Counted from the first letter of the stretch, positions 4,460 through 21,539 are shown. The stretch: DNA of 64,000 nucleotides from an uncultured Winogradskyella sp. (GCF_937958655.1 NZ_CALGNH010000018.1:1-64000), one strand, 5' to 3'. Numbers and translations are program-made. The notes: generated by a model not told the origin, from the letters alone.

Positions 4460-5764
4460 TTAATTTAAGGCAGATTTGTAAGTTGCTAAACAACGTTCTC
4501 TTGCGGCCTTGTGATCTACCATAGGTTGAGGATAAGTGAGTTCTTGATAATCTGGAACCCACTTTTTAATGTACGTATGCTCTTTGTCAAACTTTTGAAT
4601 CTGCGAAGTAGGATTAAAAATTCTAAAGTAAGGTGCAGCATCTACACCACTACCTGCAACCCATTGCCAATTGCCAACATTGCTTGCCATTTCATAATCA
4701 TGCAGTTTTTCTGCAAAATAGGCTTCGCCCCAGCGCCAATCAATCAATAGGTGCTTACATAAAAAGCTTCCAACCAGCATCCGTACACGATTGTGCATAA
4801 ATCCTGTTTCGTTGAGTTCTCTCATGCCTGCATCAACAAGTGGGTAACCTGTTTTACCCTCGCACCAGCGTTTAAATTCGTCTTCATTATTTCGCCATGC
4901 AATACGGTCGTATTTAGATTTAAAGGCTTTATCCTTGGTGTGTGGAAAATGCCATAGGATTTGCATAAAAAATTCGCGCCAAATAAGCTCTTGCCAAAAA
5001 ATTTCATTCTTTTCTGCAATGGCCTTTTTCATCATTTTTCTAACACTAACAGTGCCAAAACGTAGGTGAGGGCCTAAACGCGATGTTGCGTCTTTACTAG
5101 GAAAATTTCTAGTTGCTTCGTACTCTTGAATGAGTGTTGGTGTTACGGTATATGTTGTAATTTCTTGACTCGATTTTTCAAAACCAATATCAGACAGACT
5201 AAGGTTTGGTAGTCTAGAATGTTCTATTAAGTTATCTAAATACGAATTGGTATAGAAAATTTCTAGGTCAATGGTTTTGAATTTTTCTTTCCATTTACGC
5301 ATATAAGGCGTGTACACTACATAAGGATCCCCATCGTTTTTTACAACCTCACTTTTTTCAAAAATTACTTGGTCTTTGTAGGTTTTAAATTCAATATTGT
5401 TTTTATTAAGAAAAGCTTTTATAGCTTCATCACGCTCTTTTGCATATGGCTCGTAATCGTGGTTAGTATAGACTGTTGTAACGTTATAATCTTTTATGAT
5501 TTGTTTGTAGATGTCTAAGGGTTTACCATGAAACATAGCAATGCTACTACCATAGTCGTGTTGTAATGTTTGTCGCATGGTTTGAAGCGTCTCGTGTATA
5601 AATGTAACACGTGCATCGTCTTTTGGTAGTTTATCCAATATGTCGGAATCAAAGATAAATATTGGTAAGACAGGATGTTCGTCTTTTAGTGCTTGGTAAA
5701 AACCAACATTGTCGTCTAGTCTTAAATCTCTCCGAAACCAGAATATGTTTACTTTTTTTGACAT
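4460..5764 (-). CDS. phrB: Deoxyribodipyrimidine photo-lyase (class I CPD-type)
   Basis: NIFWFRRDLRLDDNVGFYQAL; ETGFMHNRVRMLVGSFLCKHLLIDWRWGEAYF; DYEMASNVGNWQWVAGSGVDAAPYFRIFNP (canonical FAD and Trp-chain region). Confidence 0.93.
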   Translation of the reverse strand: MSKKVNIFWFRRDLRLDDNVGFYQALKDEHPVLPIFIFDSDILDKLPKDDARVTFIHETLQTMRQTLQHDYGSSIAMFHGKPLDIYKQIIKDYNVTTVYTNHDYEPYAKERDEAIKAFLNKNNIEFKTYKDQVIFEKSEVVKNDGDPYVVYTPYMRKWKEKFKTIDLEIFYTNSYLDNLIEHSRLPNLSLSDIGFEKSSQEITTYTVTPTLIQEYEATRNFPSKDATSRLGPHLRFGTVSVRKMMKKAIAEKNEIFWQELIWREFFMQILWHFPHTKDKAFKSKYDRIAWRNNEDEFKRWCEGKTGYPLVDAGMRELNETGFMHNRVRMLVGSFLCKHLLIDWRWGEAYFAEKLHDYEMASNVGNWQWVAGSGVDAAPYFRIFNPTSQIQKFDKEHTYIKKWVPDYQELTYPQPMVDHKAARERCLATYKSALN

Positions 5765-5907: not shown

Positions 5908-6369
5908 TCAATACGTCCCAAACAATTCTTCTAACTTCTTGGTGCGATACTCAAAAATCTCTTCCAATTTTGGTTTTACTAATATTGGGTGTACCATTTG
6001 CCCAAAAATGCCCAGTGGGACTTTGTAATCTATAATATCTTCCATTTCTACACCACCATCAATAGCTTTTATAAAATGCTTGTGATGCCAAAGTGCGTAG
6101 GGTCCAAAACGTTGCTCGTCTACAAAATATTCCTTATCTCTTACATGTGTAATTTCTGTAACCCATTTAGTCTTAATGCCTAAAACTGGCGTTACAATAT
6201 ACTGAATAATTTGCCCAGGATACATTGGTCTATCGGCACCAGAAAGAATATGAAAACCCATATAATTTGGTGTAATAGTCTTTAAATTTTTAGGGCTCGA
6301 TAAAAAATCCCAAGCTTCATCTATTGAAATAGGAAGATTCTGTTTTTTATGTAGGGTGTATATTTTCAT
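5908..6369 (-). CDS. SRPBCC family protein (ligand-binding/cell-division-inhibitor-like)
   Basis: MKIYTLHKKQNLPISIDEAWDFLSSPKNLKTITPNYMGFHIL; start reassigned to M29 of the listed ORF. Confidence 0.8.
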   Translation of the reverse strand: MKIYTLHKKQNLPISIDEAWDFLSSPKNLKTITPNYMGFHILSGADRPMYPGQIIQYIVTPVLGIKTKWVTEITHVRDKEYFVDEQRFGPYALWHHKHFIKAIDGGVEMEDIIDYKVPLGIFGQMVHPILVKPKLEEIFEYRTKKLEELFGTY

Positions 6370-6401: not shown

Positions 6402-6866
6402 TTAGTTGTTTAATACAATGTATCCATTTAGAGACGTTGCAATACACAACCAAATAATATAGGGTAACAGTAAGTATTTGGCATATTTTAATCGGTCGCT
6501 TCGAAAGGTTATAAAAAAGTAAATGATAACTAATAATAATAAAACTAAAACCAGTAGGCCTACTTTAGTATGGTGTTGGTTGAAGAAAAACCAATTCCAG
6601 CTTATATTAAGCGCTACCTGAAAAGCGTAAACGAGCCACAAATTAACAGATTTTCTCAACACAAAAAGCTCAGCTAAATACCATGAGAAACATAGCATTA
6701 TAAGCGTCCATGCAAATCCAAAAACCCAACCAGGTGGTGTCCAAGGTGCTTTATTAAGATTAGTATACCACTCGCCAGTTACGGCATCACCCATAAAGAA
6801 ATTACCTAAAGCTAAGCCTCCAAAATTAACCATTAAGAAAAAAATGAAATAGTAGAATTTTTTCAA
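6402..6866 (-). CDS. tspO: TspO/MBR family tryptophan-rich sensory protein
   Basis: WYTNLNKAPWTPPGWVFGFAWTLIM, ALNISWNWFFF; typical TspO/MBR Trp-rich motifs. Confidence 0.9.
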   Translation of the reverse strand: MKKFYYFIFFLMVNFGGLALGNFFMGDAVTGEWYTNLNKAPWTPPGWVFGFAWTLIMLCFSWYLAELFVLRKSVNLWLVYAFQVALNISWNWFFFNQHHTKVGLLVLVLLLLVIIYFFITFRSDRLKYAKYLLLPYIIWLCIATSLNGYIVLNN

Positions 6867-7040: not shown

Positions 7041-7583
7041 TTAATGGTCTAAGTGGTTTGTAATTCTAGAATTCATGGGTTTAGTGATAGAGTAGAAGTA
7101 ATCTAAAAATTCGCCATCTTTATCAATTAAATACTTTTGAAAATTCCACTTAACGGAAGAGTTTTGTTTCCCGTTAATAGCTTTTTTTGTAAGCCATTCG
7201 TATAGTGGATGCTGCGCACTACCTTTAACGTTAATCTTTTCTGTAATTAAGAAAGACACACCAAAGTTAACCTCACAGAAACTATTAATTTCATCCGCAG
7301 TCCCAGGCTCTTGACTGCCAAATTGATTACAAGGTACACCAATAACCACAAGTTGCTCCTTGTAGGTTTCATGCAGTTGTTGTAACTCTCTATATTGTGG
7401 TGTAAACCCACATTTAGACGCTACATTAACAAAAAGGATATACTTCCCCTTATATTCTGATAAATCAATTGGCTGGCCAGTAAGACTATTAATTTTAATG
7501 TCGTAGATTGGTTTCGTAGCCTTTTGGACTTCATTTTTATCTGTGGCGGTTAATGTACCGACAAAAGCTTTTAGTGGATTCAT
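7041..7583 (-). CDS. Glutathione peroxidase
   Basis: YKGKYILFVNVASKCGFTPQYRELQQLHETYKEQLVVIGVPCNQFGSQEPG, VKWNFQKYLID. Confidence 0.92.
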   Translation of the reverse strand: MNPLKAFVGTLTATDKNEVQKATKPIYDIKINSLTGQPIDLSEYKGKYILFVNVASKCGFTPQYRELQQLHETYKEQLVVIGVPCNQFGSQEPGTADEINSFCEVNFGVSFLITEKINVKGSAQHPLYEWLTKKAINGKQNSSVKWNFQKYLIDKDGEFLDYFYSITKPMNSRITNHLDH

Positions 7584-7736: not shown

Positions 7737-8423
7737 CTATATTTTAAAACTTACGATACCGCAATCCATCTCAAAAACCTGACCCGACAGTGATGCTGCC
7801 TTTTCCGACAGTAAAAATCCTGCCATATCAGCTACTTCTTGTGGTTGTAAATATTTTTTAAGTGGATGACGCTCATTCATGTTTTCTATCATCCTCTCAT
7901 TACGTAATAATTTTGAAGCTAAATCTGTGTCTGTGACGGTAGGTGCAATGGCGTTAACACGAATCGTTGGTGCTAATTCTGCACCCAAAGACTTTGCAAG
8001 TCCCTCAACAGCCGATTTTGATGCAGCTACACTAGCATGAAACGGCATTCCTAATTTTGCCGCAACTGTACTAAAAAGAACAATTGACGGATAATGGCCA
8101 TTTTTTAATGCCGGTAGATACTTTTGAACAGCTTTTACTGCGCCGAGCACATTAATTTCAAAGTCGTTTTTAAAATCATCAATACTTAGTCTGCTAATGG
8201 GTTTAAGGTTAATGCTTCCTGGGCAATAGACAAGACCATCTGCACTATCAATATCTGGTAATTCATCATTAGTAACATCACACTTATAATGTTTTAAATT
8301 ACTGTACGATTCCTCTGGTGCTGTTCTGCTTATATTAACAACTTCGTCATAAGAAGAGAGCAAAGATGTGACAATTGCATTGCCAATACCTTTGCTTCCT
8401 CCAATTACTATTAATCTACTCAT
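7737..8423 (-). CDS. SDR family oxidoreductase
   Basis: LIVIGGSKGIGNAIVTSLL; SKSAVEGLAKSLGAELAPTIRVNAIAPTVTDT. Confidence 0.88.
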   Translation of the reverse strand: MSRLIVIGGSKGIGNAIVTSLLSSYDEVVNISRTAPEESYSNLKHYKCDVTNDELPDIDSADGLVYCPGSINLKPISRLSIDDFKNDFEINVLGAVKAVQKYLPALKNGHYPSIVLFSTVAAKLGMPFHASVAASKSAVEGLAKSLGAELAPTIRVNAIAPTVTDTDLASKLLRNERMIENMNERHPLKKYLQPQEVADMAGFLLSEKAASLSGQVFEMDCGIVSFKI

Positions 8424-8426
8424 CTG

Positions 8427-8654
8427 TTATGCTGCTGTAAGAGGACGTCCCTTAAGACGCTTCTCTATTTTTTGTTTAATTAAAGTTAAACGCTTCATTA
8501 AATCCATTAATTTGGCGTCTTTTTTCTTTTTGTAAATTTCATTAACGCCTAGAATAATTTCTTTAGCTTCTCTTGCTGCTAAAATTCTGTCGCTTGTAGT
8601 TTTAAACGAATGCTTTCTCGTCTCAAATTCGTTTGCTCTTTTTAAGATATCCAT
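8427..8654 (-). CDS. Small basic protein of unknown function (75 aa), photolyase-cluster member
   Basis: Tight spacing between folE and the SDR; Lys/Arg-rich helical sequence. Confidence 0.65.
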   Translation of the reverse strand: MDILKRANEFETRKHSFKTTSDRILAAREAKEIILGVNEIYKKKKDAKLMDLMKRLTLIKQKIEKRLKGRPLTAA

Positions 8655-8657
8655 AGC

Positions 8658-9344
8658 TTAATTGTTTAAATAATTTTGCAATTCAACAATTTTTTCTGGT
8701 GTGTCGAATATTCCACCATAATAGGTCGTTACTGTAGCCGATGTGTCATCTTTTACACCTCTAGACGATACGCAGAGATGTTTGGCATCTATAATAACGG
8801 CAACATCTTCGGTGTTTAAAGCTGTTTTTAATTCATTTGCAATCTGCTGTGTTAAGCGCTCTTGTACTTGAGGACGTTTAGCGTAGTATTGCACTATTCT
8901 ATTAAGCTTAGATAAGCCAATAACTTTACCAGACGATTTGTAGGCAATATGCGCTTTACCAATAATTGGTACAAAATGATGCTCGCAGTTAGAATAGAAT
9001 GTAATATCCTTTTCTACTAGCATTTGATTGTATTGATATTTATTATCGAAAAGCGCTATTTTTGGCTTATTCAGTGGGTCTAAGCCAGAAAATATCTCTT
9101 CTACATACATTTTAGCAACACGGTCTGGTGTTCCTTTAAGGGAATCGTCAGTTAAATCTAAGCCTAAGACATCCATTATCTCTGAAAATAAAATTGAGAT
9201 ACGTTGCTTTTTTTCGTCATTGCACATGTCAAAAGCAGTGGGCTTCATTGGTGTTTCAAGACTCGTAAATAGATGATCGTCTCCGATATCTTCAATCGAA
9301 AATCCATTCATTTGGTGTCCATTCTTAGTAGTAGTTGTGTTCAT
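8658..9344 (-). CDS. folE: GTP cyclohydrolase I
   Basis: FYSNCEHHFVPIIGKAHIAY...GLSKLNRIVQYYAKRPQVQERLTQQIA...VIIDAKHLCVSSRGVKD. Confidence 0.94.
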   Translation of the reverse strand: MNTTTTKNGHQMNGFSIEDIGDDHLFTSLETPMKPTAFDMCNDEKKQRISILFSEIMDVLGLDLTDDSLKGTPDRVAKMYVEEIFSGLDPLNKPKIALFDNKYQYNQMLVEKDITFYSNCEHHFVPIIGKAHIAYKSSGKVIGLSKLNRIVQYYAKRPQVQERLTQQIANELKTALNTEDVAVIIDAKHLCVSSRGVKDDTSATVTTYYGGIFDTPEKIVELQNYLNN

Positions 9345-9400: not shown

Positions 9401-9673
9401 TTAACGTTTTGTTATAGAGTTGTTTGTTATTGTTCGTTGTCTTGAACATTTAAATCTGCCTTCTTCAAATGTTCTTAATTTCTTATGTTTTGTTGCTCTG
9501 CCTTGTACACGTTCTCTCCACATTCTAAAGCTACTTGGCTTCATTTCGCGACGCATTACATCAATAACCTCTTGTTCCTTTAAGCCAAATTGAAATGTAA
9601 TAGCTTCAAAGGGTGTTCTATCTTCCCAAGCCATTTCAATTATGCGGTCTATATCTCTAGTGCTTAAATTCAT
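9401..9673 (-). CDS. TIGR03643 / DUF2805 family protein
   Basis: DIDRIIEMAWEDRTPFEAITFQFGLKEQEVIDVMRREMKPSSFRMWRERVQGRATKH. Confidence 0.82.
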   Translation of the reverse strand: MNLSTRDIDRIIEMAWEDRTPFEAITFQFGLKEQEVIDVMRREMKPSSFRMWRERVQGRATKHKKLRTFEEGRFKCSRQRTITNNSITKR

Positions 9674-10101
9674 ATACTTTGGGGCATGGAAAATTGCGCA
9701 TCATACTTTACTTTTTTGTCTAATAGCTTGTCAAAAAACTTTTTATTTTCTTTAAATGTTTTATTGTTTTTAAAGTGAACAAATCGACCTTGTGCATGGA
9801 TGCTAGAGCCATTGACTTTATAAAGCACTAATTGGTAGTAAGGTATAATCCAAGTGAAATTTTTTAAGCCTTGGTTTATCATTACTAAGATTCCTTTTGG
9901 TCTTAATTCTATGTTAGCGTAATTGATATCAGATACTTTATTCATCATACTCTGCATATTAGGACTAACGTCATCAATAATCATACGTTTAGACCCTACA
10001 CCCTTCATTTTCAATTTCTGTACCAAAGTAAAAGGATGACCTATAAGGTTGTCTATTATTTTACTGTGTTCAGGGTTATTATGTGTTGTATTTAATATCA
10101 T
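9670..10101 (-). CDS. Conserved hypothetical protein, first gene of the downstream half of the photolyase cluster
   Basis: ATG at 10101 (M18 of listed ORF); 4-nt overlap with the DUF2805 gene; PH-like/beta-rich sequence of unknown function. Confidence 0.65.
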   Translation of the reverse strand: MILNTTHNNPEHSKIIDNLIGHPFTLVQKLKMKGVGSKRMIIDDVSPNMQSMMNKVSDINYANIELRPKGILVMINQGLKNFTWIIPYYQLVLYKVNGSSIHAQGRFVHFKNNKTFKENKKFFDKLLDKKVKYDAQFSMPQSI

Positions 10102-10121
10102 TACAAAGTAAATATACAAAA

Positions 10122-10160
10122 TGTTTAATCTTATGCGATTAAGGTTAAACAAAAATTAAC
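10122..10160. promoter_or_regulatory. Putative operator A: TGTTTAA-N16-TTAAACA plus GTTAA-N7-TTAAC
   Basis: TGTTTAATCTTATGCGATTAAGGTTAAACAAAAATTAAC; matches module B at 19164-19202 in sequence and exact spacing. On the minus strand it is followed by TATATTTAC (-7-like) before the ATG at 10101. Confidence 0.6.
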
Positions 10161-10324
10161 ACAGAATTAAGAATGTAAGAAAATTATAGTAAGATTTTGA
10201 CTTGAACCAGCACCAACAACTGTGTTTTCAAGTTTTTTGAAACTTAAACTTTTATCTAAAATTTGTAAGATGAATTGCTGTGTGTTTATCTAATTTTCAA
10301 CAATGACTTAATGTTATTAGCGTA

Positions 10325-11815
10325 TTATTCATTTCTAAGCATACGATTTCTGTCACTTATAGTGTGTCGTTTTAGGATTCTAAAACTTTCACTTAAGACC
10401 TCTGGGTCTTTTTTCATGTTCCAAAGAATATCACTGGCACGTTTTCGATTTACTTTGATATCTACTATAGGATACGGATAATGCTCACCGAGTTTAAAGT
10501 TGTAGAATGTCTGTTCCATGTCCGTCATTAAATAAGGCTCATGTACAAAAGGAGTTTGTAAATCTGCTAATTCTGGGACCCATTTTCTTATAAAGACTGC
10601 ATCGGCATCGTGCTTTAAGCTATTAACAGTTGGGTTGTATATTCTTAGATTATTAATACCTGTTTCTCCAGCTTGCATTTGTAATTGTGGAAAATGAATA
10701 CCAGGTTCAAAATCCAAAAACTGTTGCGATAGGTGCGTTGTGGCTGCTTGCCAAGGTTGCCAAAGTATGTGGGTAAAAAATGACACTAACATAGCACGCA
10801 TCCTAAAATTTATGTAGCCTGTCTCTATTAAGCAACGCATGCTGGCATCTACTAATGGAAAACCGGTTTGTCCTTGTTTCCAGACTGTTTGGTACTTTTC
10901 GGAAATACTTTTTTTGAGCTTATAATAGCCTTTGTTAACACTGCTATTTTCCATGGTGTGTTCCATTTCAAACTTTTGAATAAAATGAGCTTGCCATCGT
11001 AATCTACAAAGAAAAGCACCAATGTGTTGTTTGTCCTTGGTTTTTGTTTTTAATTCTTGGCCTTTTTGAAACACTTGCCTAATGGAGATATTTCCCCATG
11101 CAATATAAGGCGAAAGCCTACTGCAACTTGTCCGTGATGCCTCTGGTTTTGAAATGTTGAACATGTAGTCGCTGTAACGACTCTCAAAAAATGAATTGGC
11201 ATATTTCCAAGCTGTAGCGCTTCCACCTTTTTGAAATTTTGTAGTTAGCGGTGTGTCTAAATCAGTTACCGTTAATACTTTTTCTAATGTTAAAATTTCT
11301 TCGGTATTTAATAATTGACCTGCTTTTGGTTGAAAAACTTCTAAGTCTTGATGCATGTAGGCTTCCCAATTTTCAAACCAGTTGTCTCTGTTAACTAAAC
11401 CACGCTCAACACCGTTGTTTTTGCTTTCTTTCCATTCAATTAGGTTGTTCCTGCAATAGCGTGTAAATTCTTTATCTCTATTATAGGTAACTAACAAGCC
11501 TGTTTCAACATGAGAATAGATGGTATTTACTCTGTAGAATTCTTGTATGAGATTAAACGCACTCTGTATATCGCAAGTTACCGAAAGTACTTTTGAATTA
11601 TAAGTTGTTAGTTTGGAATTAATATCGCTAATAGATTCTTTTATAAAATTGAAATGCCTTTCACTATAATGGTCGTTGTTTAATAATATGGGTTCAAAAA
11701 CATAAAGTAAAAGCGTACGTCTTTTAGACCTAAGGGCATTGGCAATAGCCTCGTTATCCACTAACCTTAAGTCCCTCTTTAACCAAACAACATTAATACG
11801 TTCTCTATCTATCAT
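10325..11815 (-). CDS. Photolyase/cryptochrome-superfamily FAD-binding protein (divergent paralog)
   Basis: NVVWLKRDLRLVDNEAIANAL; WKQGQTGFPLVDASMRCLIETGYINFRMRAM; DFEPGIHFPQLQMQAGETGINNLRIYNP. Confidence 0.88.
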   Translation of the reverse strand: MIDRERINVVWLKRDLRLVDNEAIANALRSKRRTLLLYVFEPILLNNDHYSERHFNFIKESISDINSKLTTYNSKVLSVTCDIQSAFNLIQEFYRVNTIYSHVETGLLVTYNRDKEFTRYCRNNLIEWKESKNNGVERGLVNRDNWFENWEAYMHQDLEVFQPKAGQLLNTEEILTLEKVLTVTDLDTPLTTKFQKGGSATAWKYANSFFESRYSDYMFNISKPEASRTSCSRLSPYIAWGNISIRQVFQKGQELKTKTKDKQHIGAFLCRLRWQAHFIQKFEMEHTMENSSVNKGYYKLKKSISEKYQTVWKQGQTGFPLVDASMRCLIETGYINFRMRAMLVSFFTHILWQPWQAATTHLSQQFLDFEPGIHFPQLQMQAGETGINNLRIYNPTVNSLKHDADAVFIRKWVPELADLQTPFVHEPYLMTDMEQTFYNFKLGEHYPYPIVDIKVNRKRASDILWNMKKDPEVLSESFRILKRHTISDRNRMLRNE

Positions 11816-13284
11816 TTTAGTGTCTCTAAGAATTGTTCTGCGTTATTAAAGTGATTTTCTAAAGTTTCTTTTTTCATTTTATCCAAATTACCAAGTAGCA
11901 TGCCTAAGCGAGGATTGCTAGCGAAAAAATTGCGATGCTTATCCATAAAGGTCCAAAACAATCCATCCCAAGTGGCTTGCCAATCTCCTTTGCTATAATT
12001 GCTCATTTTCATAATATAATTGCTGCTACTTATGTAGGGTTTGGTAGACATTAATCCGCCATCTGCAAATAAGCTCATGCCGTAGACATTAGGCACCATT
12101 ACCCAATCATAAGCATCGATAAAGAGTTCCATAAACCATTGGTAGACTTCATCTGGGTCAAACTCGCAAAGCACCATAAAATTACCAAGTATCATTAAGC
12201 GCTCAATGTGGTGTGCATAGGCTGTTTTGTTTACCTTTTTTATGACATCGTCAATTGGTTTTATACCTGTAGTACCGTTGTAAAAGGATTTAGGGATTTT
12301 TCTACTAAAATTCCAGAAATTTTTAATGCGTTCTTCGGTACCTTTTACTTCGTAAACACCTCTTATAAACTCGCGCCAACCCAATATCTGACGTACAAAA
12401 CCCTCTAAAGAATTAAGTGGTACATCATTGGCTTTTGCATACGTAATGGCTTTGTTAATAACATCCATTGGGTCTAACAAACCCACATTAATTAAAGGGG
12501 ATAGTAAGCTGTGGTTAAGAAAATGTTCCTCTTTAACTATTGCATCTTCATAAGGGCCAAATTCATGAAAACGCTGTTCTAAGAATTGGGTTAACCATTG
12601 TTCTGCGGCTTTAGGAGAAATGGGATAATTAATTAAATCATTTAATTCTCCATAATTATTATTAAAGTTTTTGTTGACGTAAGCTTCCGCTTCTGTATGA
12701 TATTTTGATTTATCTGGAAACTGTAAATATGGTGGTGTTTTAGCTTTTGGGTATTTTTTTCTGTTGTCTGAGTCGTAAGTCAGTTTCCCACCATGTGGCT
12801 CGCCATTAACCATCAATAAATTTCTGTCTTTGCGTTGCTGTTTGTAAAACGAGGTTTGAAAAAATTTCTTTTTATTCGGTTTAAAAAATGTGCTCAGTTC
12901 GTCCTTGGTATTAATAAACAAAGGACTTTCATACGACTTTAGCTCAATGGTATTAGATACTGAATTAATATGTTTTTGCAACCAATTATCGGTTGGGTCT
13001 ATGATGTGAAACGTCTCTAGTCCTTTGTCAATTAAATGTGGAATTAATTCTCTTACATCGGAGTGGTCTGAAATGGCTTCTATATAATGAATCGTTTTCC
13101 CTTTAGATTTTAAATAGTCTTCGTAACATTTGAGCGTTGCTCTGTGGAATAAAATTTTCTGTTTATGGAATTTATAATGTTTGAAAAATAAAAATTCTTC
13201 AACCAGATAGATATCACAGTCTAAGTTAAGAATTGGTGAATTCTTAAAGAGTTGGTGTGGGAATATTAATGCTGCTTCTTTCAC
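11812..13284 (-). CDS. Cryptochrome/photolyase-related protein (PF04244, FeS-BCP/CryPro-like)
   Basis: EAALIFPHQLFKNSPIL; LGWREFIRGVYEVKG; AYAHHIERLMILGNFMVLCEFDPDEVYQWFMELFIDAYDWVMVPNVYGMSLFADGGLMSTKPYISSSNYIMKMS. Confidence 0.9.
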   Translation of the reverse strand: MKEAALIFPHQLFKNSPILNLDCDIYLVEEFLFFKHYKFHKQKILFHRATLKCYEDYLKSKGKTIHYIEAISDHSDVRELIPHLIDKGLETFHIIDPTDNWLQKHINSVSNTIELKSYESPLFINTKDELSTFFKPNKKKFFQTSFYKQQRKDRNLLMVNGEPHGGKLTYDSDNRKKYPKAKTPPYLQFPDKSKYHTEAEAYVNKNFNNNYGELNDLINYPISPKAAEQWLTQFLEQRFHEFGPYEDAIVKEEHFLNHSLLSPLINVGLLDPMDVINKAITYAKANDVPLNSLEGFVRQILGWREFIRGVYEVKGTEERIKNFWNFSRKIPKSFYNGTTGIKPIDDVIKKVNKTAYAHHIERLMILGNFMVLCEFDPDEVYQWFMELFIDAYDWVMVPNVYGMSLFADGGLMSTKPYISSSNYIMKMSNYSKGDWQATWDGLFWTFMDKHRNFFASNPRLGMLLGNLDKMKKETLENHFNNAEQFLETLK

Positions 13285-13313
13285 TTTTTTGTTTAGGTTG
13301 TTTTTTCTCTTTT

Positions 13314-13395
13314 ACACCCCTAAAGTCCCCTCAAGGGGACAATAATTTCAATGTTTGTTTTATAGAATGTCCCCTTGAGGGGACTTTAAGGGTGT
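13314..13395. repeat. Class I palindromic repeat, copy 2
   Basis: ACACCCCTAAAGTCCCCTCAAGGGGACA (13314-13341) / TGTCCCCTTGAGGGGACTTTAAGGGTGT (13368-13395), one mismatch; spacer also resembles copy 1 (TCAATGTTT.TTT). Confidence 0.88.
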
Positions 13396-13397
13396 TC

Positions 13398-14711
13398 TTA
13401 AAACAAACTTGGCTGTAACCAAAGCTTTCTAAACTTTCCGTTAGTGTCATACCGTTCTGCCTGCAGTTGTACGTTAAACTTTCGGTCTCTTGGGTCATTA
13501 CCTACACCGGCAACATACATCCAATTGCCATAGTTACTATGCACGTCATAGTCTATTAATAAAGACTCAAAATGAGCTGCACCAATGCGCCAGTCTAGCT
13601 CTAATTCTTTAGCAAAGTAGGATGCTACATTTTGCCGACCTCTATTACTCATCCAACCGGTTTCTTTAAGTTCTATCATATTGGCATTTACAAAATCAGA
13701 GTGTGTTTCTCCGTTAATCCATTTTTGTATGTGATTTTCATTTGTGGACCAGTCGTAATCTTTTTGAAGAATACCCTCTAGCTTAAAAATTTCGTTACCG
13801 TGTTTTAGTGAAATATATTTAAAGTAGTCTCGCCAAATGAGCTCAAATATGAGCCAATATGTTGATTGATTTTTGAAATGTTCTTTTTCAAATTGCTTTA
13901 CGTTCCAATAGATAGTTCGTGCAGAAATACTACCATTTGCCAACCAGGGTGAAAATTTAGAACTATAGTCTACGCCAACTAATCCATTACGGGTTTTTTT
14001 ATAAAACCCCAATTTTTTAGTGTTGAAGAAATAATTATCCATGCGATGTAAAGCTTCGGTTTCGCCACCTCTATAAGGGAATGCCGAATGTGGATGTGTT
14101 TCAAAAGTATCAAAACCTAAATCTGAAAGAGACGGTATGTCCGTATGATTTTCAATTTTATTATTTTGAGATTGTTTTTCTATGCTAATTTCTTCACGAA
14201 TAGATACATATTTTTCAAGCTTCTTTCTAAATGCTGTAAAAACTTGTGGTGTTTTTGAAACCTCAAAGTTGATATCCTCAGGATGAAATAAAAATTGGTT
14301 GTAAAATGAATGGAATTGAACATTGGTGGCTTCGAATACTTTAGCTACCAGAGCTTTTTTAACCTCAAGTTCAGTATTAACTTCTTCTTGCGTCCATTCC
14401 TTTTGTAGGTATATGTCTGTGATTCTATAGTCTGTATAAAGCTTTGGGATGATGTTTTCGGGTAAGTCATTAAATACCAATAAATCAATGTTTAGTTGAT
14501 TAAGCTGCTGTTTTAAATCTATAACCGTTTCAATTAAAAATTTAGCACGATACTTCTCGGTCTTTTTAAAACCAAACGTATCAGCTTTAAAATGTCTTGG
14601 GTCAAAACAATACACCGCAATGGTTTTTGTACCATTTGAACACGCTTGGTTTAAGACCAAATTATCCCGTGTTCTTAAATCATTTCTAAACCAGACTAAA
14701 TTTGTTTTCAT
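13398..14711 (-). CDS. DASH-family cryptochrome
   Basis: NLVWFRNDLRTRDNLVLNQA; ETGWMSNRGRQNVASYFAKELELDWRIGAAHFESLLIDYDVHSNYGNWMYVAGVGNDPRDRKFN (CRY-DASH signature). Confidence 0.93.
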   Translation of the reverse strand: MKTNLVWFRNDLRTRDNLVLNQACSNGTKTIAVYCFDPRHFKADTFGFKKTEKYRAKFLIETVIDLKQQLNQLNIDLLVFNDLPENIIPKLYTDYRITDIYLQKEWTQEEVNTELEVKKALVAKVFEATNVQFHSFYNQFLFHPEDINFEVSKTPQVFTAFRKKLEKYVSIREEISIEKQSQNNKIENHTDIPSLSDLGFDTFETHPHSAFPYRGGETEALHRMDNYFFNTKKLGFYKKTRNGLVGVDYSSKFSPWLANGSISARTIYWNVKQFEKEHFKNQSTYWLIFELIWRDYFKYISLKHGNEIFKLEGILQKDYDWSTNENHIQKWINGETHSDFVNANMIELKETGWMSNRGRQNVASYFAKELELDWRIGAAHFESLLIDYDVHSNYGNWMYVAGVGNDPRDRKFNVQLQAERYDTNGKFRKLWLQPSLF

Positions 14712-14744
14712 CAGTTTTGATTTTAGACCTTTTAGTTATTTATT

Positions 14745-14885
14745 CTATTTAGTTCTTTTACAGCGTTCGCTACAATATTTTACATCTTTCCAATTCTTTT
14801 CCCATTTTTTGCGCCAGCTGAAAGGACGCTCGCATACAGGGCAAACTTTAGTTGGTAGATGTCGTTTTTTTATTCCTGTTGGCAT
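14745..14885 (-). CDS. DUF2256 domain-containing small Cys-rich protein (46 aa), not in ORF track
   Basis: [50 protein letters not shown]...C...C zinc-ribbon-like. Confidence 0.85.
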
Positions 14886-14898
14886 TCTTTATCTTTTT

Positions 14899-14978
14899 CA
14901 CCCCTAAAGTTCCCTCAAGGGGACAACCCTCAAAACGCAAGTTGGTACCAGCGTCCCTTTTAGGGGACTTTAGGAGTG
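14899..14978. repeat. Class I palindromic repeat, copy 3 (diverged)
   Basis: CACCCCTAAAGTTCCCTCAAGGGGACAA ... CGTCCCTTTTAGGGGACTTTAGGAGTG. Confidence 0.75.
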
Positions 14979-14998
14979 TTTTTTCGTTATGTTAGATT

Positions 14999-16420
14999 TC
15001 ATTTCGGTTCCACTAGTGCATTAATCATCCCTTTAAACACAAAGGCATGAAATGGCAGTACCATATACCAATACAGGCGTCCCAAAACCCCTTTAGGTCT
15101 AAAAACTGCACGTTGGTATAATCGGTCTTTTACAATTTTAAATTCTAGCCAAGCTTCGCCAGGTAGTTTCATTTCTGCAAAAAGTAATAATCGTTTTTCT
15201 TTTTTATCGGCTAATAGTACACGCCAAAAATCTAATGGGTCACCTGGTTCTAAATAGGTGTCGTGTGTGCGTCCTCTTCGTAATCCTACACCACCAAACA
15301 GTTTATCTACATAACCTCTTATCTTCCATAAGCCGTTAAAGCTATACCAACCATTGCGACCACCAATGCCCCAAATTTGATTTATGGTGAATTTTTCGTC
15401 CTTTATTTTTCTGGACCGTACATCCTTAAAACAACCATATTGAGGTAATTCTATATGCTTAGACAGCTGGTCTTTAAAAACTCCGCTACTTACCGCATCC
15501 TTCCAACTAGATACCACCGAGTTTTGCTGTATTTTCTGAAAAGCTAATTCTACCGCTGTTCTATAAGTCATTGGCGTAATAGCAATATGGTCGTTGATAT
15601 TGCTTGATTTTCCGATGACTTCAACCTTCATACTATCAACCAAAGCTTGCGCTAACTGAAACGACGTTGATGTAACAAAATACAACCAGTAGGATGATAA
15701 CTTAGGAGATAATAGAGGTAAGGTGTATATGTATCTTTTAAGCCCGCGCACTTCGGCAAACTGCAATAACATTTCTTTGTAGGTTAAAATTTCTGGGCCA
15801 AAAATGTCATACGAGTTATTGTATAGTTTCTCTTTAGTTAAGGCGCCAGAAAGATAAGTGAGTACATCTCTTATGCCTATAGGTTGCGTTTTGGTATTCA
15901 ACCATTTTGGCGTTATCATTACAGGCAGTTTTTCTACAATATCTCTTATGATTTCAAAGGAAGCACTGCCACTGCCTACGATGATTCCTGCCCTAAATGT
16001 GGTTAAACCATAGCTGTTAGATTTTAGTGTTTCTTCTACCTGTAAGCGCGATTTTAAGTGTTTAGATAATGAGTCATCATTAACAATACCACTTAGGTAG
16101 ATAACGTGCTTACAATTAGTAGCTTCAACAAGGTTTTTAAAGTTTTGAGCACACTGGCGTTCTAAACTTTCAAAATCTTTAGAGTTTGTTGCCATGGAAT
16201 GAATGAGGTAGTAAGCCGCATCAATATTTTTTGGAATTTTATTGGGTTCTGGACTTAAAAAGTCCATTTTAATAAAAGTACAATTGGGATGTTCTTCAAT
16301 CTCATCTGGAATACGATTCATATCTCGTACGCAGCATACCAATTGGTGCTCAGCTTCAACGAGTTGAAGTGCTAGTCGTTTGGCGATGTAGCCAGTTGTG
16401 CCTGTGATGAGTATTTTCAT
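14999..16420 (-). CDS. NAD(P)-binding SDR-like protein with C-terminal DUF2867-type region
   Basis: MKILITGTTGYIAKRLALQLVEAEHQLVCCVRD; AAYYLIHSM; C-terminal GDPLDFWRVLLADKKEKRLLLFAEMKLPGEAWLEF. Confidence 0.82.
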   Translation of the reverse strand: MKILITGTTGYIAKRLALQLVEAEHQLVCCVRDMNRIPDEIEEHPNCTFIKMDFLSPEPNKIPKNIDAAYYLIHSMATNSKDFESLERQCAQNFKNLVEATNCKHVIYLSGIVNDDSLSKHLKSRLQVEETLKSNSYGLTTFRAGIIVGSGSASFEIIRDIVEKLPVMITPKWLNTKTQPIGIRDVLTYLSGALTKEKLYNNSYDIFGPEILTYKEMLLQFAEVRGLKRYIYTLPLLSPKLSSYWLYFVTSTSFQLAQALVDSMKVEVIGKSSNINDHIAITPMTYRTAVELAFQKIQQNSVVSSWKDAVSSGVFKDQLSKHIELPQYGCFKDVRSRKIKDEKFTINQIWGIGGRNGWYSFNGLWKIRGYVDKLFGGVGLRRGRTHDTYLEPGDPLDFWRVLLADKKEKRLLLFAEMKLPGEAWLEFKIVKDRLYQRAVFRPKGVLGRLYWYMVLPFHAFVFKGMINALVEPK

Positions 16421-16433
16421 AAATCCGAAAGAC

Positions 16434-16500
16434 TGCCATTTTGAGTGTAGTTGAGAAACATAATGATATTTATAACATCTCGACTACGCTCGATGTGACA
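16434..16500. repeat. Class III imperfect palindromic repeat (TGYCAYWYYGAGYGTAGTYGAGA...)
   Basis: Left TGCCATTTTGAGTGTAGTTGAGA; right TCTCGACTACGCTCGATGTGACA; imperfect inverted arms in an intergenic region. Confidence 0.65.
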
Positions 16501-16510
16501 GATGCTATAA

Positions 16511-17143
16511 TTATTGTTTTATTGCTTCTTTTTTTGGGCGCTGGTACTCTAAGCGTTGTTTTAACTCTGGTATGGCGTAACCATCTAACCCGTTTATAGA
16601 GGCTACTTTTCCTTTAGAAAGATTAATAAACCCGTCCTTTTCTATCAATTCATCAGGAACGTATAGCTTTTCTATTTTTCCTATTAACAAGATAGTGTTA
16701 TTGGCCTTAATTGGGTATTCTTCAACATAGCTCATCGCAAGTTGTACAGGGCAACCTTTAACAAATGGCGCAATAAAATTATCTTTGTACTCTTCATCTA
16801 AAGTGGTGACATCAAATTCTGAAATTGACGCGTCGTATTTAGCTGAAGTATGGTGGGCATCTTCTAAAATACCCTCATGGATGTGATTTAGTGTGTATTT
16901 TCCTGTGGTTTTTATATTATCATAGGTATTTCTTATTACCGTGGTTGGCCTTAAGAAAAAACCTAATAATCCTGGATTAGAGCCCAAGTGCGTAACGGAA
17001 CTAAAAACTGCTACATTACTACTGCCTAAAGCATCTTTTGTGCCTATGAGGTTGGCAGATTTGTAACCGCTACAACTATTTATGAGGTTGATGCGATACA
17101 AATGATGCATCTTATTAATGTCGTCTAAGCTAAATTCTGCCAT
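16511..17143 (-). CDS. Flavin reductase family protein (FMN-binding split-barrel)
   Basis: YKSANLIGTKDALGSSNVAVFSSVTHLGSNPGLLGFFLRPTTVIRNTYDNIKTTGKYTLNHI; start reassigned to M41 of the listed ORF. Confidence 0.82.
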   Translation of the reverse strand: MAEFSLDDINKMHHLYRINLINSCSGYKSANLIGTKDALGSSNVAVFSSVTHLGSNPGLLGFFLRPTTVIRNTYDNIKTTGKYTLNHIHEGILEDAHHTSAKYDASISEFDVTTLDEEYKDNFIAPFVKGCPVQLAMSYVEEYPIKANNTILLIGKIEKLYVPDELIEKDGFINLSKGKVASINGLDGYAIPELKQRLEYQRPKKEAIKQ

Positions 17144-17144
17144 T

Positions 17145-18455
17145 TTACAAGGTTGTGAAATTGTTGATTTTAATATTTTCTGCTTTAAGATCGAACATAA
17201 GATTATAGAGACCAAAAAATGTTCTGTTGATATATATAAAATGTTTAGAGCCACGGTTACCATTCATGTTTCGCAGTTCAGTACTCTTGGAATATTTTTG
17301 TCCCATTTCTGCAACTTGATTAAAGAATTCTGCATCTGAGAAATCAAAAATTTCATTTTGAAATGGTTGTGTAAACAAACTTAACAACTCATGAAACATG
17401 TTAGAGAAAAACGTCATTTCTTCCTCGGAATCGTCCTTGCGTAAAATTTCGAGCTCATACATTTTTTCCTTAAATGCTACAGGGTCATTAATGCAGTTTT
17501 TATCTGCCAACTCAAAATAGGGTTTGTAGAAATTTTCTGGAATAGCTTTCATACATCCAAAATCTAAAGCAATAAGCGCACCATCCTTTGATACTAAGAA
17601 ATTACCAGGATGAGGGTCTGCATGTACTTTTTTTAGATTATGAATTTGATACATGTAAAAATCCCATAAGGCCTGTCCTAATTTGTTAGAAAGCTCTTGG
17701 TCTTTATTATGCGCTACAAATTCTGAAAGGTGTTCACCCTCCATATAATCCATAGTGATAATTCGCTCAGACGAATATTGTTCGTAGTAGTTTGGAAATT
17801 TTAGGTTGGGTATGTGTTTGCAGGCTTCTACGACGGCTTTACTCTGTTCTATTTCTAATAAATAGTTGGTTTCCTCTACAAGTTTATCTTCAACTTCTTT
17901 AAAGTATTTGTCAGAATCTTTTCCTTTAATATTAAACATTTTAATAGCAATAGGTTTTACTAAAGCTAAATCAGAAGTGATACTCTCCGCAACTCCGGGA
18001 TATTGGATTTTCACAGCAAATTTTTTCCCATCTTTATCTGCAAGGTGTACTTGACCAATGCTCGCAGCATTTACCGAAGTTGCGTTGAAAGTATCAAAAA
18101 GTTCATTAGGATGTTTACCAAAGTATTTTTTAAAAGTTTTTATTACTAAAGGCGGTGATAATGGTGGTACAGAAAATTGTGATAACGAAAATTTTTCTAC
18201 ATATGCTTTCGGCAAAATGCTCTTTTCCATACTTAACATTTGTGCGACTTTAAGCGCACTCCCTTTAAGTTTTTTAAGGCTATCGTATATATCTTCTGCG
18301 TTATTTTGATTAAGGCGTTCTTTGGCTTCCTCTTTAGGATTTACCATTTTATCACCATAATATTTTAAATAATTGACACCAACTTTAGCACCAGTAGATA
18401 CTAATTTTGAGGCTCGAGATATTTTGGTAATTGGTATGCTGTCAATTGTTTTCAT
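17145..18455 (-). CDS. AarF/ABC1/UbiB-family protein kinase-like protein
   Basis: LKKLKGSALKVAQMLSME (KxGQ-like), NAASIGQVHLADKDGKKFAVKIQYPGV, HADPHPGNFLVSKDGALIALDFGC. Confidence 0.92.
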   Translation of the reverse strand: MKTIDSIPITKISRASKLVSTGAKVGVNYLKYYGDKMVNPKEEAKERLNQNNAEDIYDSLKKLKGSALKVAQMLSMEKSILPKAYVEKFSLSQFSVPPLSPPLVIKTFKKYFGKHPNELFDTFNATSVNAASIGQVHLADKDGKKFAVKIQYPGVAESITSDLALVKPIAIKMFNIKGKDSDKYFKEVEDKLVEETNYLLEIEQSKAVVEACKHIPNLKFPNYYEQYSSERIITMDYMEGEHLSEFVAHNKDQELSNKLGQALWDFYMYQIHNLKKVHADPHPGNFLVSKDGALIALDFGCMKAIPENFYKPYFELADKNCINDPVAFKEKMYELEILRKDDSEEEMTFFSNMFHELLSLFTQPFQNEIFDFSDAEFFNQVAEMGQKYSKSTELRNMNGNRGSKHFIYINRTFFGLYNLMFDLKAENIKINNFTTL

Positions 18456-18476
18456 TTGTTCTGAAGGTGTTTCAGT

Positions 18477-19133
18477 TTAATTCATGTGAATTTTTTCTTT
18501 GTACAAAAACTTACCTAAATCCATTAAACTTTTTAAAGGTGTAGTGTCTATAAGGTCAAAACTGGCTTTAACTGACTTTTCTATAAAAAGATCTGTTTTT
18601 TCAAACGATGCAGAGGTATCATCAATCCAAAATTTAAGGGTAATGAGTAATTGTAGCCATGCGGACTCTTTAAGACTTCTTCTTTGAATTTTTTCTAATT
18701 GTTCTTGCTTTAAGTCTAGTGTTGGTATATTAAGATGCTCAATATAATTAAAGAATCTACTCTTTAATTGCGATAATGTTCTCAATGACTTTAAGGATTT
18801 CTTATGGTCGTTTAAAGTATGTATAACATAGCTTCTGTTGGCTGTAAGAATTTCGAAAAAGGTGAAATAAAAGCTTAATAATTTATTTCGGGCATCAAAA
18901 GTTAAATAATCATCACTTTTCTCTAACACAGCATGGGCGCTATCAAAAAATATTTTAAAAATGGATTGCTCTAAAACTTCAAACGAAGTAAAAAATTCAT
19001 AGAACTTTTCTTCTTTCATATTATTGTTTTTAGCAAATGCATAAACAGTTTTTGGTTGTTCATTATGCATTAAAACATAATCCATGTATGCGCTAATAAC
19101 GTCGTTTTGTGTTACTGATTTTTTCTTTGCCAT
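18477..19133 (-). CDS. TetR-like transcriptional regulator
   Basis: N-terminal HTH-like VISAYMDYVLMHNEQPKTVYAFAKNNNMKEEKFYEFFTSFEVLEQSIF, followed by an all-helical C-terminal domain. Confidence 0.72.
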   Translation of the reverse strand: MAKKKSVTQNDVISAYMDYVLMHNEQPKTVYAFAKNNNMKEEKFYEFFTSFEVLEQSIFKIFFDSAHAVLEKSDDYLTFDARNKLLSFYFTFFEILTANRSYVIHTLNDHKKSLKSLRTLSQLKSRFFNYIEHLNIPTLDLKQEQLEKIQRRSLKESAWLQLLITLKFWIDDTSASFEKTDLFIEKSVKASFDLIDTTPLKSLMDLGKFLYKEKIHMN

Positions 19134-19163
19134 AATAACTGATTTATAATGTAAAGATACAAA

Positions 19164-19202
19164 TGTTTAACTATGTAAGTAAATTGTTAAACAAAATTTA
19201 AC
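19164..19202. promoter_or_regulatory. Putative operator B: TGTTTAAC-N14-GTTAAACA plus GTTAA-N7-TTAAC
   Basis: TGTTTAACTATGTAAGTAAATTGTTAAACAAAATTTAAC, 31-69 nt upstream of the TetR-like start; on the minus strand followed by TATCTTTAC (-7-like). Same layout as module A. Confidence 0.65.
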
Positions 19203-19222: not shown

Positions 19223-19891
19223 TTAGCAACCCTCATCGCAACACTTATCGTCTTTTACGATTTTACAGCTAATTACTGCTAGTATAGCTCCTAAGAATGG
19301 TGCAATTAAGTAGAGCCAAAGGTGTTGCAGATTACCAGAAATTACGGCAGGTGCTAATGAGCGAGCCGGATTCATTGACGCCTTTGTCATTGGGCCAGCA
19401 AACATGGCTTCTAAAAGTATAATTGCTCCCACAGCAATAGCTGCCATGGTGCCAATTTCTTTACTTCCTGTAGAAACGTTAATTATAACCACCATTAAAA
19501 AAAAGGTGAGTAATACTTCTAAAATAAATGCTTTGTAGGGTTCAAATCCATCGGCAGGGTAGGTGTGTCCAAAACTAGTGCTCTCTGGGAATAAGACCCA
19601 TAAAAGACTAATGGCAAGAAATGCGCCTGCAATCTGAAAAAGGATATAAAGCGGAACGTTTTTCCAACTGAATTTTTTTGCGAAAGCAAAAGCAACCGTC
19701 ACCGCAGGATTAAAGTGTGCTCCAGAAATTTCACCAAACGCGTAAATCATGGCCATAACAATAAGTCCCCAAGTGATAGCTACACCAACATGAGATATGC
19801 TACCACCTGTAATTTCGTTAACCGTCATGGCACCACAACCGCAAAACACCATTATAAAAGTGCCGATTAATTCAGCAATTTCTTTTTTCAT
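19223..19891 (-). CDS. MIP/aquaporin family channel (AqpS-like, ars operon)
   Basis: GAHFNPAVTVAFAF and SMNPARSLAPAV NPA motifs; downstream of arsR/arsC-type genes. Confidence 0.9.
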   Translation of the reverse strand: MKKEIAELIGTFIMVFCGCGAMTVNEITGGSISHVGVAITWGLIVMAMIYAFGEISGAHFNPAVTVAFAFAKKFSWKNVPLYILFQIAGAFLAISLLWVLFPESTSFGHTYPADGFEPYKAFILEVLLTFFLMVVIINVSTGSKEIGTMAAIAVGAIILLEAMFAGPMTKASMNPARSLAPAVISGNLQHLWLYLIAPFLGAILAVISCKIVKDDKCCDEGC

Positions 19892-19909
19892 TTATTCTGA
19901 ATTTATTTC

Positions 19910-20085
19910 GAGGCTGTCTAAAACGTACCCTTTTTTGTCATTTCGAGAGTAGTAGAGAAATCTAAAATTTTGATTTTCAAAGCATTTCGACTTCTTCGCA
20001 ATGTGCTTTCAATCAAAGTTTACTTTGCTTTTAACCAATGCTCAATGTGACAGATTAGAATTTTATTGACTTTTTAGACAGTCTC
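19910..20085. mobile_element. MITE-like 176-bp element with 14-bp terminal inverted repeats and a nested palindrome
   Basis: GAGGCTGTCTAAAA (19910-19923) / TTTTAGACAGTCTC (20072-20085), 13/14 match; inner TGTCATTTCGAG ... CTCAATGTGACA; noncoding, 2 nt from the arsC-like stop. Confidence 0.6.
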
Positions 20086-20087
20086 AA

Positions 20088-20702
20088 TTATTTATTAACT
20101 TTTGAAAACACATACTTCAATTCTGTGGCTATTTGAAGACTCCTCTCCAAATATTTTTCGGCTTGTAAAGGCATATTATCATAGGCTTTTGGGTCTTTAT
20201 ACGTTAGTGGAATACGTTTTTCTGCACCGGAAATAATTGGACAAGCTTCATTGGCAGAATCACAAGTCATAATTGCAGCAAACTCTTTCGTTGGGTTAAA
20301 ATCTGCGTCGTAAGTTTTAGAGAAGCCAATAACAGGATGCTTTAAATCTGAATATTTAATCACATAGACAGGATTTTTTTCGTTGGAAAGCGATGTGATA
20401 TTAAATCCTGAAGCACGTAATGCTTCTGCGGAGGAAGGGAAAAGGGCAGTAGCCTCCGTTCCACCAGAGTAGCAAAATACATTCTCAATTTTGTAATAAC
20501 TCGCCATAGTTTGCGCCCAAACCTGCGATAAGTGGCTGCGACGCGAGTTGTGTGTACAGATAAAATTGAGGTTGACAATTTTATTTTTATCACCTTTATT
20601 TTGAATAAAATCTACTAAAGTTTGAAGGATAGCTTTACGTTCTGACGCTATAGTGTTGATATCTAAAGATTCAATTTGTGAACTAATTTGAGGATATAGC
20701 AT
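20088..20702 (-). CDS. Arsenate reductase-like low-molecular-weight protein-tyrosine phosphatase
   Basis: NLNFICTHNSRRSHLSQVWAQTMA (CX5R-like loop), MTCDSANEACP. Confidence 0.85.
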   Translation of the reverse strand: MLYPQISSQIESLDINTIASERKAILQTLVDFIQNKGDKNKIVNLNFICTHNSRRSHLSQVWAQTMASYYKIENVFCYSGGTEATALFPSSAEALRASGFNITSLSNEKNPVYVIKYSDLKHPVIGFSKTYDADFNPTKEFAAIMTCDSANEACPIISGAEKRIPLTYKDPKAYDNMPLQAEKYLERSLQIATELKYVFSKVNK

Positions 20703-20731
20703 GGTTGTATTTTAATAGTTATAGTTTGGGT

Positions 20732-21202
20732 TTAGCAACAACCAGATTCTGGTGTACAACATGAGGTTTGATTTTGAATATCGGATAGTTTTACTTTAGG
20801 TTTAGATACTGCAATTCCGCAAGCATCTAATGCTAAACAGGCAGTTTTTTTTGTGGTTAAAAGAAAATTAATACCATCAAAATCTAATCCAAATTTTCCT
20901 ATGGTATCCCCTTGGTATTCGACTTCAATTTCTAAATCTTCAATTTTTAAAACCTTTTCGGATAGCTCAATGATATTTAATAGTTTTTCTGGATGTAATC
21001 TATGGTCGTAGTCATCGGCTTTCCAAAGTTGAAAGTTGGCGACTTCCTCGTGTCTTACCATTCCGCCACAATCAATAAAGTCTTTTGTTATTTTGCCGAC
21101 TTCTGTGACATGAAAATGGGCAGGCACTAGCGCGCCATTTGGTAATTGAAACCCTATGGTTTCTAAGGTTTTTAATGTCGATTTTATTTCGGATAGTTTC
21201 AT
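20732..21202 (-). CDS. DUF6428-like family protein (ars operon)
   Basis: MKLSEIKSTLKTLETIGFQLPNGALVPAHFHVTEVGKITKDFIDCGG; C-terminal SCCTPESGCC. Confidence 0.72.
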   Translation of the reverse strand: MKLSEIKSTLKTLETIGFQLPNGALVPAHFHVTEVGKITKDFIDCGGMVRHEEVANFQLWKADDYDHRLHPEKLLNIIELSEKVLKIEDLEIEVEYQGDTIGKFGLDFDGINFLLTTKKTACLALDACGIAVSKPKVKLSDIQNQTSCCTPESGCC

Positions 21203-21212
21203 ATACTTTTAT

Positions 21213-21539
21213 TTAACAGCAGTTATTATTTATATCTTGATTTAGAAATTCGTTAATAATGGATTTCATGGTTGTCCAGTTATCATTATTTATACAGTAA
21301 CAAATACTGGTACCTTCTATGTTTCCTTTAATTAAACCAATGTTTTTTAATGCTCTAAGATGCTGAGAAATTGTAGGCTGTGCCAAGCCTATTTCGTCCA
21401 CTAAATCACCGCAAATACAAGAGTTGATTTTAAAAAGGTATTGTAGAATAGCCACTCTTGCCGGATGCCCAAATACTTTTGCAATGTTTGCAATTTGGTT
21501 TTGTTGCTCTGTAAAGATTTCGCTTTTAGTTAATCCCAT
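21213..21539 (-). CDS. arsR: ArsR-family metalloregulator
   Basis: VFGHPARVAILQYLFKINSCICGDLVDEIGLAQPTISQHLRALKNIGLIKG. Confidence 0.92.
   Translation of the reverse strand: MGLTKSEIFTEQQNQIANIAKVFGHPARVAILQYLFKINSCICGDLVDEIGLAQPTISQHLRALKNIGLIKGNIEGTSICYCINNDNWTTMKSIINEFLNQDINNNCC

Follow-up and report, generated by a model that had tools for sequence, protein, structure and literature searches.

A conserved operator upstream of flavobacterial photolyase operons and its likely LitR/CarH-type regulator

Introduction

Regulating photolyases and pigments by light is fundamental to marine flavobacteria, and the literature searched still calls the regulator unknown (PMC7064467). Which protein might fill this role is a question raised by a photolyase island of an uncultured Winogradskyella sp., found within a 64,000-nucleotide stretch of DNA (the window; GCF_937958655.1, NZ_CALGNH010000018.1:1-64000), where two near-identical promoter modules, A and B, precede the two halves of the island. 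The original prediction, made from this sequence, offered two readers for them: an autoregulated TetR-like repressor, or a trans-encoded light regulator such as a B12-binding MerR/LitR-type protein. In the sequences of this genome and its relatives we found the element itself, its conservation, its genes and position, the domains and motifs of a candidate regulator, and a change in the operator that goes along with one in the recognition helix. In a search of the open-licence literature, no account of this element in Flavobacteriaceae came up, nor any LitR operator from a flavobacterium.

Results

Two exact dyads overlap the promoters of the photolyase island

Both modules contain the dyad TGTTTAA-N16-TTAAACA exactly and in the places originally given for it (Table 1), two copies in the window against 0.01 expected, and none of 100 shuffled windows held two copies. 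The predicted -7-like boxes are also present on the minus strand. The second arm, GTTAA-N7-TTAAC, occurs in both modules (10144-10160 and 19186-19202) but fails as a universal part of the element, as the third half-site is found in only 17 of 63 orthologous promoters.

A genome-wide motif search, suggested with the original prediction and carried out by pattern matching across the 3.03-Mb genome, found the extended form TTTGTTTAA-N16-TTAAACATTT exactly at the two modules alone, with two further places at two mismatches. The bare 14-letter dyad with two mismatches allowed gave 93 sites versus 82 for the reversed control, which is mostly chance in an AT-rich genome, so what makes the element specific is its fixed spacing together with the TTTG...CATTTTGTAnnTTT flanks. 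A third exact TGTTTAA-N16-TTAAACA is situated 8 bp before the beginning of a gene for a secreted repeat protein (L003 1380-1409, G000:C80); it has no -7 flank and is probably a chance occurrence.

By the Flavobacterium johnsoniae numbering of the -7 box, with its T at -12 (PMC6847099), both dyads are predicted to span about -47 to -18, and the putative transcription starts fall at 10104 (module A) and 19147 (module B). A clear TTTG at -33 is found in neither module promoter, and F. johnsoniae promoters generally show little -33 motif (PMC6847099). The -7 box of module A is very near the ATG at 10101 (window 10099-10116), giving a predicted leader of about 3 nt; unlike most F. johnsoniae mRNAs, the module A mRNA would be near-leaderless.

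Table 1 Predicted operator features and genes of the photolyase island, in window coordinates
Feature	Position	Strand	Remark
Module A operator dyad TGTTTAA-N16-TTAAACA (predicted)	10122..10151	-	upstream of 9670/DUF2805/folE operon
Module A optional third half-site GTTAA	10156..10160	-	sequence
Module A -7 promoter box TATATTTA	10109..10116	-	sequence; F. johnsoniae numbering
Module B operator dyad TGTTTAA-N16-TTAAACA (predicted)	19164..19193	-	upstream of TetR-like/ABC1/photolyase operon
Module B optional third half-site GTTAA	19198..19202	-	10 bp upstream of GTTTAA
Module B -7 promoter box TATCTTTA (Bacteroidetes TAnnTTTG type)	19152..19159	-	conserved in orthologs
TetR-fold protein (TetR_C_23), operon B gene 1	18477..19133	-	regulon member, unlikely operator reader
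ABC1/UbiB-like atypical kinase	17145..18455	-	
Flavin reductase-like protein	16511..17143	-	
NAD-binding/DUF2867 protein	14999..16420	-	
DASH cryptochrome	13398..14711	-	
DPRP/PF04244 photolyase-related protein	11812..13284	-	
Photolyase/cryptochrome-family protein, operon B last gene	10325..11815	-	
Conserved protein, no assigned function, operon A gene 1	9670..10101	-	
DUF2805/TIGR03643 protein	9401..9673	-	
GTP cyclohydrolase I (folE)	8658..9344	-	
Small conserved protein	8427..8654	-	homolog in G136 with TTGTCTAA/TTAGACA operator
Short-chain dehydrogenase	7737..8423	-	
Glutathione peroxidase-like protein	7041..7583	-	
TspO/MBR protein	6402..6866	-	
Conserved protein	5908..6369	-	SRPBCC-like by eye; no Pfam match
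DNA photolyase, island end	4460..5764	-	

The element recurs across Flavobacteriaceae in front of one gene set

Conservation of the motif upstream of orthologous islands, proposed earlier as a check, extends to dozens of genera. A gap-free profile of the orthologous promoters broke on 1-bp changes in the ATTTTG spacer, with module B scoring low, and was replaced by spacing-aware patterns. Upstream of the TetR-like gene orthologs of other genera the sequence reads TTTTGTTTAAC-N14-(A/G)TTAAACATTTTGTATCTTTAC, with GTTTAA and TTAAAC 16 bp apart. Among 151 genomes of the family, one per genus, 56 carry GTTTAA-N16-TTAAACATTTTGTANNTTT when a single mismatch is tolerated and none carries the reversed control, and the element was absent from the roughly 265 genomes outside the family among 297 searched throughout the phylum. 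Carriers include Winogradskyella (the closest), Tamlana, Bizionia and Polaribacter, and most Winogradskyella species have a second copy about 8.5 kb downstream, like the layout of the window. On these comparative grounds the element is a real conserved promoter element.

The gene that follows it nearly always belongs to a photolyase-associated set, usually at a distance of 6-30 bp and about 200 bp in some genomes. The targets are the TetR-like/ABC1 operon and the 9670/DUF2805/folE operon; in rearranged islands they are 5908-type, SDR and photolyase genes, the 8427-type small protein with glutathione peroxidase, or DUF2452/DUF2805 genes with photolyases. A few lone sites precede other genes, e.g., KAS III in G145. 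The proposed co-control of both operons gains support from this conservation.

A LitR/CarH-type regulator is encoded upstream of crtI

Three MerR-domain proteins are encoded in the genome. One of them, the C54 regulator (300 aa, G000:C54:17130-18029), lies directly upstream of crtI and combines an N-terminal MerR winged-helix domain (PF13411, E 1.9e-15) with a B12-binding_2 four-helix bundle (PF02607) above the cut-off; the Pfam Rossmann model gave no score on this protein. Most of its length, 220 residues, aligns with Thermus thermophilus CarH (E about 2e-12). Across 60 regulator sequences the Wx9EH motif is invariant (60/60) and the lower-ligand histidine motif [ED]xHxxG is found in 56, the C54 protein included, while the equivalent of CarH His132 is Q in 30 of 32 proteins with an RIW recognition helix and G in 24 of 26 with RKW. 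The features of the LitR/CarH family are therefore present as the MerR domain, the B12 bundle with Wx9EH and [ED]xHxxG, and His132 is missing. Because His132 is not known to be needed in every LitR class, its absence is of more consequence for the mechanism of light response than for membership of the family.

In the promoters of the C54 gene and its RIW-type relatives a GTTTAA half-site is fused to the -7 box, and the half-site TAnnTTTGTTTAA stands within 60 bp upstream of 22 of 29 RIW-type genes, against 0.1 expected. Two genomes, both incomplete, have the element and yielded no regulator (G080 and G149), and among TetR-positive genomes presence of the regulator was no significant predictor of the strict element (p = 0.30). 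Of the two other MerR proteins, one (C63, 109 aa) has no effector domain, resembles the MliR-type short MerR regulators (PMC9478572) and was set aside; in the other (C1) the MerR domain is joined to a DNA methyltransferase.

Operator letters change together with the recognition helix

In some genomes of the family a sister clade of the regulator has KAHTLRKWETRY as its recognition helix where the others have KAHTIRIWEKRY (RKW versus RIW). The operators of this clade read TTGTCTAA-N16-TTAGACA, with unchanged spacing and a symmetric alteration of both half-sites (T-to-C/A-to-G). Half-sites of this GTCTAA type (TTGTCTAA/TTAGACA) were found at 29 of 30 RKW regulator loci versus 2 of about 33 RIW loci, a few genomes being represented twice in these counts. 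Full dyads precede the orthologous TetR-like gene in four genomes (G038, G263, G264 and G347) and lie elsewhere before crtI (G186) and near folE and the homolog of the small 8427 protein (G136). Since the operator changes in step with the MerR helix, the LitR/CarH-like protein is the likely reader, and of the two readers first proposed it is the trans-encoded one that holds up, with its gene in the genome and a half-site in its own promoter.

The correlation does not represent many independent events, because the change from RIW to RKW is about one event on the regulator tree, where Lys has a single origin (support 98/93); residues other than Ile/Lys also differ between the two types. One genome (G025) that falls with the RKW types in the tree nonetheless has the RIW helix and a GTTTAA/TTAAAC operator. 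Exceptions are a mixed site in RIW-type G255, a hybrid in RKW-type G067, and the lack of a dyad at the TetR-like gene in G014 and G398.

The GTCTAA operator beside the RKW regulator gene is often common to a divergent fasciclin-domain gene. At four loci (L375, L387, L389 and L239) lipoprotein-like genes with several fasciclin domains diverge from the regulator gene and share its GTCTAA operator. At a further locus (L248, G067:C21), TTGTCTAA-N16-TTAGACA precedes a gene of the 6-pyruvoyl-tetrahydropterin synthase family, a second pterin gene alongside folE.

Discussion

We consider it probable that both modules are operators of the C54 LitR/CarH-type MerR regulator, which would repress until it is inactivated by light. 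The protein would bind half-sites with a TnnACA core, here TAAACA, arranged as TGTTTA-N18-TAAACA; the bound sites would cover the -33 region and reach the -7 box, and in some promoters a third half-site lies one turn of the helix further upstream. Once bound, the protein would block RNA polymerase. Inactivation, by analogy through light acting on bound adenosylcobalamin, would then turn on both photoprotection operons and the crt operon. We infer physical binding, repression over activation, the B12 cofactor and the light signal; repression in the dark by the AdoCbl-bound protein, and its release in light, are carried over from the known systems. The observation is real and wider in scope than first stated: the element is a conserved operator that probably serves a photoprotection regulon of the LitR/CarH type in flavobacteria.

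The repeated TnnACA half-sites over a promoter that mark LitR/CarH operators appear here as TAAACA or TAGACA at about -47 to -18; both fit the core, as does TGTACA, and the two flavobacterial types differ at the variable nn. Pseudomonas LitR proteins bind T(G/A)TACA-N12-TGTA(C/T)A and their regulon includes PhrB, FolE, CryB, SDR and other genes (PMC9758184). The class II LitR proteins of Pseudomonas (PplR1/PmlR2) share with the flavobacterial system a MerR-type regulator, light-inducible photolyase, cryptochrome-like, FolE and SDR genes, and two spaced half-sites with a TnnACA core overlapping the -35 region. They differ in the half-site TGTACA with N12, in phylum and promoter type, and in a regulator that has no full B12 domain and acts through a short LOV protein. 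Thermus CarH binds nAnnTnnACAn repeats, and the Myxococcus xanthus CarA operator extends from -70 to -19, overlapping the -35 box (PMC8156234). CarH of Thermus and Bacillus and CarA/CarH of Myxococcus have the same MerR and B12 domains, Wx9EH, ExHxxG and carotenoid gene linkage, and their operators likewise overlap the promoter, with a right edge near -19 and a TnnACA core. In contrast, the Thermus and Bacillus operators are direct 11-bp repeats where the flavobacterial half-sites are inverted, and the flavobacterial regulator lacks His132 and has targets that include two photolyase operons in trans.

CarH carrying H132A was reported to stay mostly tetrameric in light, although an earlier report cited there differs (PMC10442372); with Gln or Gly in place of His132, this makes the light step uncertain. 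It is conceivable, and we put it forward tentatively, that the family has a B12-type MerR light regulon whose specificity was switched by Ile/Val to Lys (GTTTAA to GTCTAA), and whose regulator leaves DNA without the His132 switch and hence by a different light/B12 mechanism. The system thus also bears on whether CarH-type light release works without His132. With one specific regulator gene, an exactly defined operator, a list of genes and a natural operator/recognition-helix variant pair to hand, binding, light response and specificity become directly testable in culturable Winogradskyella, Polaribacter or Bizionia.

The MerR regulator could instead bind and activate, or sense B12 status, redox or another signal rather than light. 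It is common for MerR proteins to activate from sites lying between the promoter boxes, and both the lack of a clear -33 TTTG and the missing His132 suit such a reading. We regard it as unlikely, since the characterised LitR/CarH relatives are mostly light-released repressors (PMC9758184, PMC8156234), the targets are light-damage genes, the motifs required for AdoCbl are conserved, and a poor -33 motif is general in F. johnsoniae.

The TetR-like protein as an autoregulating repressor that binds both modules is a considerably weaker proposal, and we think it improbable. Its gene is the first behind module B, its predicted structure (pLDDT 87) shows an HTH within a TetR fold and has TetR regulators as its best PDB matches, its profile weakly matches FadR-type TetR regulators, and presence of the gene correlates with the element (p 2e-7 over 151 genera; p 0.012 within MerR-positive genomes). 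In part this correlation is trivial, the gene being one of the targets. Against the protein as reader, the element is present in six genomes that lack the TetR-like gene (G051, G066, G073, G107, G131 and G145), elements also precede photolyase-associated genes unlinked to that gene, Pfam scores the C-terminal domain of the protein alone, the exposed recognition-helix positions vary freely among 90 orthologs while the operator is fixed, and operator type tracks the MerR helix. All six of these genomes encode the MerR protein, and the element occurs in none of 30 genomes without either (p 0.006). With its fold intact, the TetR-like protein may nevertheless bind DNA.

That the element is a core-promoter type or a chance AT-rich dyad with no dedicated regulator is scarcely credible, for all its AT-rich letters and a mismatched bare dyad about as frequent as its reversed control, given a 16-bp spacing fixed in dozens of genera with zero control matches, its confinement to one gene set and the symmetric half-site change in the sister clade.

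The LitR/CarH-type reading leaves the TetR-like protein a place among the targets. The TetR_C_23 protein and the ABC1/UbiB-like kinase are adjacent family-wide (window 17145-19133), recalling the Coq9/Coq8 pair even though menaquinone is the quinone of these bacteria, and likeness to both TetR/AcrR repressors and Coq9 is seen in the TetR fold and in the ABC1/Coq8-type kinase as the next gene. Human Coq9 is among the fold matches (TM 0.59) with true TetR regulators ranking higher, and it is one of many TetR-fold matches. Together with the neighbouring kinase, the match makes a lipid-related role a plausible alternative.

On the other side of module B, ending about 20 bp from it, genes for an ArsR-family regulator, a DUF6428 protein, an ArsC-like phosphatase (a call by eye, with no Pfam match) and an aquaporin follow one another on the minus strand (window 19223-21539) and resemble an arsenic operon that includes an AqpS-type channel.
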